64,000 nt of DNA from contig SHZY01000012.1 of assembly GCA_009692065.1 (NCBI GenBank), positions 1 to 64,000 on the forward strand, written 5' to 3'. Origin of the DNA: Gemmataceae bacterium (GTDB lineage: Bacteria > Planctomycetota > Planctomycetia > Gemmatales > Gemmataceae). The position numbers were made by a program, and so were the translations under genes. Of this stretch, positions 4,830 to 5,501 are shown in pieces. The first letter of the stretch is position 1, and every line of letters begins with the position of its first letter. The notes beneath the pieces were generated by a model, which was given only the letters and a program-made list of their open reading frames with translations, searched no databases and was not told where the DNA came from.

Positions 4830-5501
4830 TCACTTCGCCTTGACATTTTCCGCCAGCCAATTCTCAATCTCCTTGACGCGAAACCCGCCCGGCCCAGGCC
4901 CCCCCTGGTACGCGATCTTGCCGTCCGCGCCAATGATGTAAAGCCGGTCGGGCCACGCGCCGTAGATGGCGTTGACGCGATTGTCCTCGCGATCGATGAG
5001 GGTCGGCATGGTCATCTTCAAGGTGGCGACACATTGCTGGGCGATCTCGCTGCGGTCCTCGACCTTCTGTGTCTGCGGGATCTTCAGCAGCTTCTTCTCG
5101 CCGTCCTTGAGCGTGAGCAGAATGGAATCGGGATGGGATTCACGGATGTAGACGAGGAAGAACTCGGCGCGGTCCTTGTAGGTCTGATAGACCTTCTCGA
5201 GGTAGCCAGACTGGCTACGGAAGGGCGGTCAGGTGTAGCTGCCGAAGATCAAGACAACCGGCTTCTTGCCCTGGAAACTGGATAGCTTCACTTCCTTGGT
5301 TTTCTTCAGATCGGGCAGCGTAAAGTCGGGCGCCGGGTCGCCGGCGCGCAGCATCGTGTTCTTGCGCTCCCCCTTGGCCGGCGGTGTGTTGATCTCGCCC
5401 GTTTTCGGATCCTTCTTGCCTTGTCCAACGCCGATGTCCGTCACCGTAAGGCCCACGACAAGGCCGGTACAGCACAGAGTAAGCCACGATAACCATCGCA
5501 T
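4830..5501 (-). CDS. Probable selenoprotein, iodothyronine-deiodinase-like thioredoxin-fold protein (in-frame UGA = Sec91)
   Basis: Reading through one TGA (5229-5231) gives an uninterrupted 223-residue protein. It has a signal peptide or membrane anchor (residues 1-28), then a peroxiredoxin/TlpA-like start (AGDPAPDFTLPDL, 53-65), then LIFGSYT-U-PPFR (84-95), FFLVYIRESHPDS and a thioredoxin-fold end (PDRLYIIGADGKIAYQGGPG). FGSxT-(U/C)-PPF and the VYIxEAHP-like segment are hallmarks of the deiodinase family, in which this position is Sec in vertebrate enzymes and Cys in many bacterial relatives. The start at 5501 begins a clear signal sequence. A bSECIS-like hairpin follows the UGA. The alternative is a Cys-to-stop nonsense mutation; against that, no other stop or frameshift exists in the remaining 132 codons. 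The role is inferred as an exported thiol/selenol redox enzyme, not hormone metabolism. The sel machinery is not in this window. Confidence 0.82.
5202..5231 (-). promoter_or_regulatory. UGA Sec codon and bacterial SECIS-like hairpin
   Basis: Counted on the mRNA, 10 nt after the UGA (5229-5231) starts the stem GUAGCC, loop AGUCU, stem GGCUAC (5218 down to 5202). The apical loop therefore begins 16 nt past the UGA and has G as its second base. Both features meet the published bacterial SECIS rules (apical loop 16-37 nt downstream, G among the first two loop bases, stem of at least 3 bp). A lower CCUU/AAGG pairing can extend it across an internal loop. SelB recognition is inferred. Confidence 0.72.

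Follow-up and report, generated by a model that had tools for sequence, protein, structure and literature searches.

A probable selenocysteine-encoding gene of the deiodinase family, with a bacterial SECIS hairpin, in a Gemmataceae bacterium

Deiodinase-like proteins of bacteria, with either selenocysteine (Sec) or Cys, were reported in 2005 from the Sargasso Sea (PMC1088965), and bacterial deiodinase-like selenoproteins were counted in 2008 in GOS (PMC2398784). In the available parts of these two reports, the proteins share with the gene described here the family (PF00837), Sec or Cys at the catalytic place, and a bacterial SECIS in the coding region; they come from environmental marine sequence, with no planctomycetes named in those parts, whereas the present gene is from a planctomycete. 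Sec deiodinase-like proteins have been known in bacteria since 2005, and the present gene adds one; an earlier note on this DNA also stated that bacterial members exist with Cys or Sec. That note called the Sec-containing ones little characterised, which holds: the family has been catalogued since 2005 (PMC1088965, PMC2398784), and biochemistry on a bacterial member was not found in the open-access literature. Later catalogues give the motif of the bacterial members as UxxC (PMC9312934, PMC13188914), in contrast to the U-PPF of the present protein. Fusions of EF-hand and deiodinase-like domains were reported as selenoproteins in 2021 (PMC9402790); these have the same catalytic domain, but the present protein is without the EF-hand. 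This genome has a second PF00837 gene (L025:1462-2838, contig C244), in which a Cys form (GNFTCGPFR) is joined to EF-hands. In other planctomycetes, such as L076 and L112, segments resembling EF-hands are found ahead of Sec forms as well.

The animal enzymes DIO1-3 (4tr3, 9h48) have the TUPPF motif, the fold (Z 20.7-21.7) and the Ser/Thr/Tyr/Glu/His relay residues in common with the protein studied here. They differ in that their SECIS is in the 3′-UTR, whereas the present gene has a bacterial SECIS inside the gene and a probable signal peptide, and the present protein is without the second relay His, the Arg clamp of Dio3, and the proximal Cys. Likewise, AhpE and ResA, representing the peroxiredoxins and the ResA-type thioredoxins, share the thioredoxin fold (Z ~17) and the logic of peroxidatic and resolving Cys, but the present protein has a deiodinase-specific segment and motif, and Sec instead of Cys. 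In the open-access literature, nothing relevant was found on Planctomycetota selenoproteomes, nor any paper on the spread of the family in planctomycetes, covariation between SECIS and protein, or cysteine exclusivity.

The window, meaning the whole stretch of 64,000 nucleotides that was analysed, belongs to contig C44 of a draft genome that is 94% complete. On its minus strand, a frame runs from an ATG at 5501 to a natural TGA stop at 4830-4832. An ordinary ORF caller splits it at the only internal TGA (5229-5231), after which 132 sense codons follow; recounting gave the same figures as the earlier note. With this TGA read as Sec (residue 91), the product has 223 aa. The features of the locus are the following.

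4830..5501, minus strand: CDS of the putative deiodinase-like selenoprotein, 223 aa, Sec91 (reading frame, PF00837 match, dN/dS)
5421..5501, minus strand: probable Sec-type signal peptide, residues 1-27, judged by eye: MRWLSWLTLCCTGLVVGLTVTDIGVGQ
5229..5231, minus strand: UGA read as Sec91 (UGA in 100 and Cys in 23 of 123 survey domains, in one column)
5202..5218, minus strand: bacterial SECIS stem-loop, GUAGCC-AGUCU-GGCUAC (folding, bSECIS rules, covariation)
5208..5212, minus strand: apical loop AGUCU, N1-G-U-N-N2 with an A-U closing pair (sequence, published rule)
5133..5150, minus strand: Tyr118-Ile-Arg-Glu121-Ser-His123, counterpart of the deiodinase proton relay (conservation, alignment with Dio2 and Dio3)
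5031..5033, minus strand: Cys157, proposed resolving cysteine (exclusivity with Cys at Sec-2 in 181 homologues)
4830..4832, minus strand: natural stop codon, TGA (reading frame)

The protein matches PF00837 (T4_deiodinase) in Pfam with 108.9 bits (E 3.2e-31), well above the curated cut-off of 27 bits, with weaker matches to Redoxin (50.4 bits) and AhpC-TSA (50.2 bits). The gene at 4830-5501 is read as a Sec-encoding gene of the deiodinase family, with a probability of about 0.95. This is the reading that the earlier note had proposed, and it is backed by the Sec gene set of the genome, by the UGA column of the homologues and by purifying selection. Standard annotation would cut the gene in two; the Sec reading restores one gene. 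Judged by eye, its N-terminus resembles a signal peptide, and export of the protein is quite likely; the orthologues L057, L058 and L061 also have an N-terminal hydrophobic segment, ending in AIGQ, GRAQ and GAGQ, respectively.

Surveys of the family and of the phylum Planctomycetota gave 123 homologous domains, 100 with an in-frame UGA and 23 with Cys, all in one column, and in none of the 123 was a UGA seen outside that column. The UGA of the window gene, in the motif GSYT-U-PPFRSQ, thus stands at the Sec/Cys position of the deiodinases, as had been claimed. Named genomes contributed 58 more UGA domains, in which the UGA occupies the same place in the motif, three of them reading GSYTUPP; some of the 58 come from genomes that the surveys had already covered, and the cysteine and covariation statistics were computed after removal of duplicates. 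A deiodinase-family match was found in 118 of 392 sampled Planctomycetota genomes, and most of the matches among those listed have the UGA. Sec forms also occur in MAGs assigned to Actinomycetota, Acidobacteriota, Armatimonadota, Chloroflexota, Verrucomicrobiota and Poribacteria. Together, the approximately 180 Sec and Cys homologues amount to a mutagenesis series made by nature, in which deiodinase chemistry, the resolving cysteine included, can be studied. Tandem UGA-containing deiodinase-like genes are present in L051, L062 and L177, the last a Fimbriimonadia MAG with three in a row (1653, 2329 and 3004). Cys forms are present in MAGs labelled Euryarchaeota (L207) and Akkermansia muciniphila (L210), for which the binning or naming could be wrong. 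Divergent Sec forms in L068 and L070 have the active-site contexts UPPC and UNIFC, the former in agreement with the UxxC motif of the catalogues.

In 181 homologues, a proximal Cys (two residues before the Sec or Cys, at Sec-2) is found alone in 21 and a distal Cys (near residue 157, about 66 residues after the Sec) alone in 153; none has both and seven have neither. This exclusivity is apparently new. It may be that bacterial deiodinase-like selenoproteins recharge through a proximal or a distal Cys and never through both, the distal one being a genuine alternative resolving residue, a proposal with about even odds on the sequence pattern; that Cys157 is the resolving residue of the window protein could prove either right or wrong on the same pattern. 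Alternatively, the exclusivity may reflect shared ancestry alone and not a shared job, which is possible, if held here only tentatively. On the tree, the proximal Cys changes by approximately three independent swaps, and the exclusivity is not significant by independent pairs, a test that is underpowered with only 2-3 pairs. However, L060 and L094 have the proximal Cys and not the distal one, and differ in surrounding sequence from the main GSCTUPPF(V/R)xSV group, L060 being placed with the clade of the window protein only on a branch with support of 21. Also against ancestry alone, the selenenyl-sulfide of Dio1 is known to be formed by Cys124 (PMC9141512). Should the distal Cys prove to be such an alternative resolving residue, it would bear on what the distal Cys of the animal enzymes does, although the two are not column-homologous: in pairwise alignment, the bacterial distal Cys sits some residues before the animal one.

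An AlphaFold model of the window protein (pLDDT 85) has Dio2 (Z 21.7) and Dio3 (Z 20.7) as its best PDB matches, the next being at 17.5. Ser88, Thr90, Sec91, Tyr118, Glu121 and His123 align with Dio2 Ser127, Thr129, Sec130, Tyr157, Glu160 and His162, which have been described as a proton relay (PMC11592359); across 123 homologues, the Tyr and His are invariant and the Glu is present in 121. It could be supposed from these matches in fold and sequence, and from the presence of all six relay counterparts, that the protein is a true iodothyronine deiodinase, or a dehalogenase of environmental halogenated aromatics. Pro184, before a D-R pair, also resembles the arrangement at Dio1 Pro213 (PMC11592359). 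This is nonetheless improbable: where Dio2 has its second relay His (H182), the window protein has Thr144 and the homologues mostly have Pro, Dio3 Arg275, the substrate clamp, aligns with Pro202, and one would not expect thyroid hormones in such bacteria (PMC1088965). Due to the absence of the second relay His and of the Dio3 substrate clamp, thyronine deiodination is unlikely.

A general redox role, on (hydro)peroxides or disulfides, is more likely than thyronine deiodination, and the window protein probably works like a deiodinase/peroxiredoxin half-reaction, with thyronine an unlikely substrate. The description of the protein in the earlier note as an exported redox enzyme is likely to hold, from the N-terminus, the thioredoxin/peroxiredoxin fold of the model and the conserved relay residues. 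Under this proposal, SelB and Sec-tRNA(Sec) would bind the hairpin, Sec would be inserted at the UGA at 5229-5231, and the UGA at 4830-4832 would terminate the protein. Once exported, it would act as a peroxiredoxin-like selenol enzyme, in which the network of Ser88, Thr90, Tyr118, Glu121 and His123 would activate Sec91. Sec91 would take an oxidising group (peroxide, possibly halogen) from the substrate, Cys157 would then join it in a selenenyl-sulfide, and an extracytoplasmic thiol reductant may reopen this bond.

Published rules for bacterial SECIS elements give a loop of N1-G-U-N-N2 with pairing of N1 and N2, a stem of 4-16 bp, a spacing of 16-37 nt and an energy of -7.5 or lower (PMC13188914); they were applied here as a loop of 3-9 nt with G in the first two positions, a stem of 4-16 bp, 16-37 nt from UGA to loop, and MFE of -7.5 or lower. 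The hairpin in the window satisfies all four. Its stem has 6 bp (7 with the A-U closing pair around GUC) and it folds alone at -9.6 kcal/mol, which, with the AGUCU loop and the distance of 16 nt, bears out the earlier assessment against these rules. That assessment had the hairpin itself start 16 nt after the UGA; this is correct for the loop, but the stem starts at 10 nt. From the UGA onwards, a stretch of 43 nt folds at -16.2 (z = -3.05), a value reached by 3 of 200 shuffles.

Among the homologues, 92% of the UGA forms and 4% of the Cys forms have a hairpin that obeys the loop and spacing rules, compared with 27% (maximum 38%, 200 runs) in synonymous-codon shuffles of the same proteins. Plain minimum free energy separates Sec from Cys forms poorly, both being below their shuffles; only the rule-based hairpin separated them. 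As all 100 UGAs share one column, and the hairpin is far above synonymous shuffles and above the Cys forms, chance is excluded. Covariation was assessed, with no selection for pairing, in those UGA sequences that have a CGN codon for Arg at +4 and Gly at +8 (n=85). In register, the double-change score is 0.245 and 70% of cells are paired; when the register is slid, these values do not exceed 0.099 and 51%. The picture is unchanged in a redundancy-reduced set (n=48; 0.212 against at most 0.104), although these controls allow for relatedness only in part. A covariation peak in register was looked for in the Cys forms and none was seen. The silent third base of the Arg codon and the second base of codon +9, five residues later, are Watson-Crick pairs in 65%, with 30% expected and a maximum of 51% in 20,000 permutations. 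Depending on the Arg codon, the residue five later is mostly Asp or Tyr (CGT), mostly Ala (CGG), or Val or Arg (CGA). This is a clear case of RNA structure steering the choice of amino acid.

The part downstream of the UGA is under purifying selection, as judged from sequence comparison: the dN/dS of the window gene after the UGA is approximately 0.1-0.2 against three orthologues, and dS is 0.8-1.3 versus dN of 0.12-0.16 among close orthologues. The relatives have intact frames with the same single UGA, and the decay that had been raised as a concern is not seen in them. A pseudogene or sequencing error, in which a nonsense mutation has split what was once a Cys protein and translation stops at 5229-5231, would agree with the stop made there by an ordinary ORF caller; it is rejected as very improbable, being refuted by the same-column UGA of 100 homologues with no other stop, the dN/dS after the UGA, and the conservation of the hairpin with covariation.

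In bacterial systems of this kind, SelB with Sec-tRNA(Sec) binds a hairpin of the bSECIS type and inserts Sec at the UGA. The genome has all four genes that the earlier note had wished to see: tRNA-Sec (selC; 72.9 bits, ARAGORN anticodon TCA), selA (559 bits), selB (392 bits) and selD (340 bits). The selB and tRNA-Sec matches mean that the absence of selB and selC, which would have counted against Sec, does not apply. The selD gene has a UGA of its own, in SCAGU-AGK (raw sequence: tcctgcgcgggctgagcgggcaag), and directly upstream of it is a small Rdx/SelW-like gene with CSQU (PF10262, E 9.5e-21). Hairpins follow both UGAs, with apical loops GUU (selD) and GUC (SelW-like), and the loop after the SelW-like UGA is again AGUCU, as in the window gene. 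The folds of these two hairpins alone show no excess over shuffles (z -1.21 and -0.19). Ordinary ORF calling would thus cut short two more selenoprotein genes here (contig C90, L021:1142-1378 and 1531-1533).

Of 95 genomes in the same family, 23 have a UGA form, and each of these scores above the curated cut-off for selA or selB. One of them, G040, has selB, but selA and a strong tRNA-Sec were searched for and not found in this draft, which is probably a gap in it. G050 and G094 have solely Cys forms; searches of these two found neither selA nor a selB above the cut-off, and tRNA-Sec gave no strong match. The close Cys homologue from G050 (L042) has TGC in place of TGA, GSYTCPPFRRQS, and the bSECIS-type hairpin of its relatives is gone. 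If a changed code or near-cognate suppression made UGA stand for Trp or some other amino acid instead of Sec, the frame would be open too, but this reading is exceedingly improbable and is rejected, since the gene itself ends with TGA (4830-4832), so TGA is not reassigned genome-wide, the homologues have Cys and not Trp at the site, and the genome has the full Sec gene set.

The gene is flanked by a convergent transglutaminase-core gene (3758-4768, plus strand) and a divergent gene without a Pfam match. This order is kept in the close relatives L144, L145 and L218, and the transglutaminase match is also found in L055, from another genus. An operon clue to function was considered and rejected, and the conserved neighbour says little on function, because the arrangement is convergent. 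Further along, and used as neighbour markers only, are an apparent glycine cleavage cluster (7343-11857, minus strand; P-protein halves, H and T proteins) and, after it, a lipoate-ligase-like gene (6618-7355), all named from their translations.
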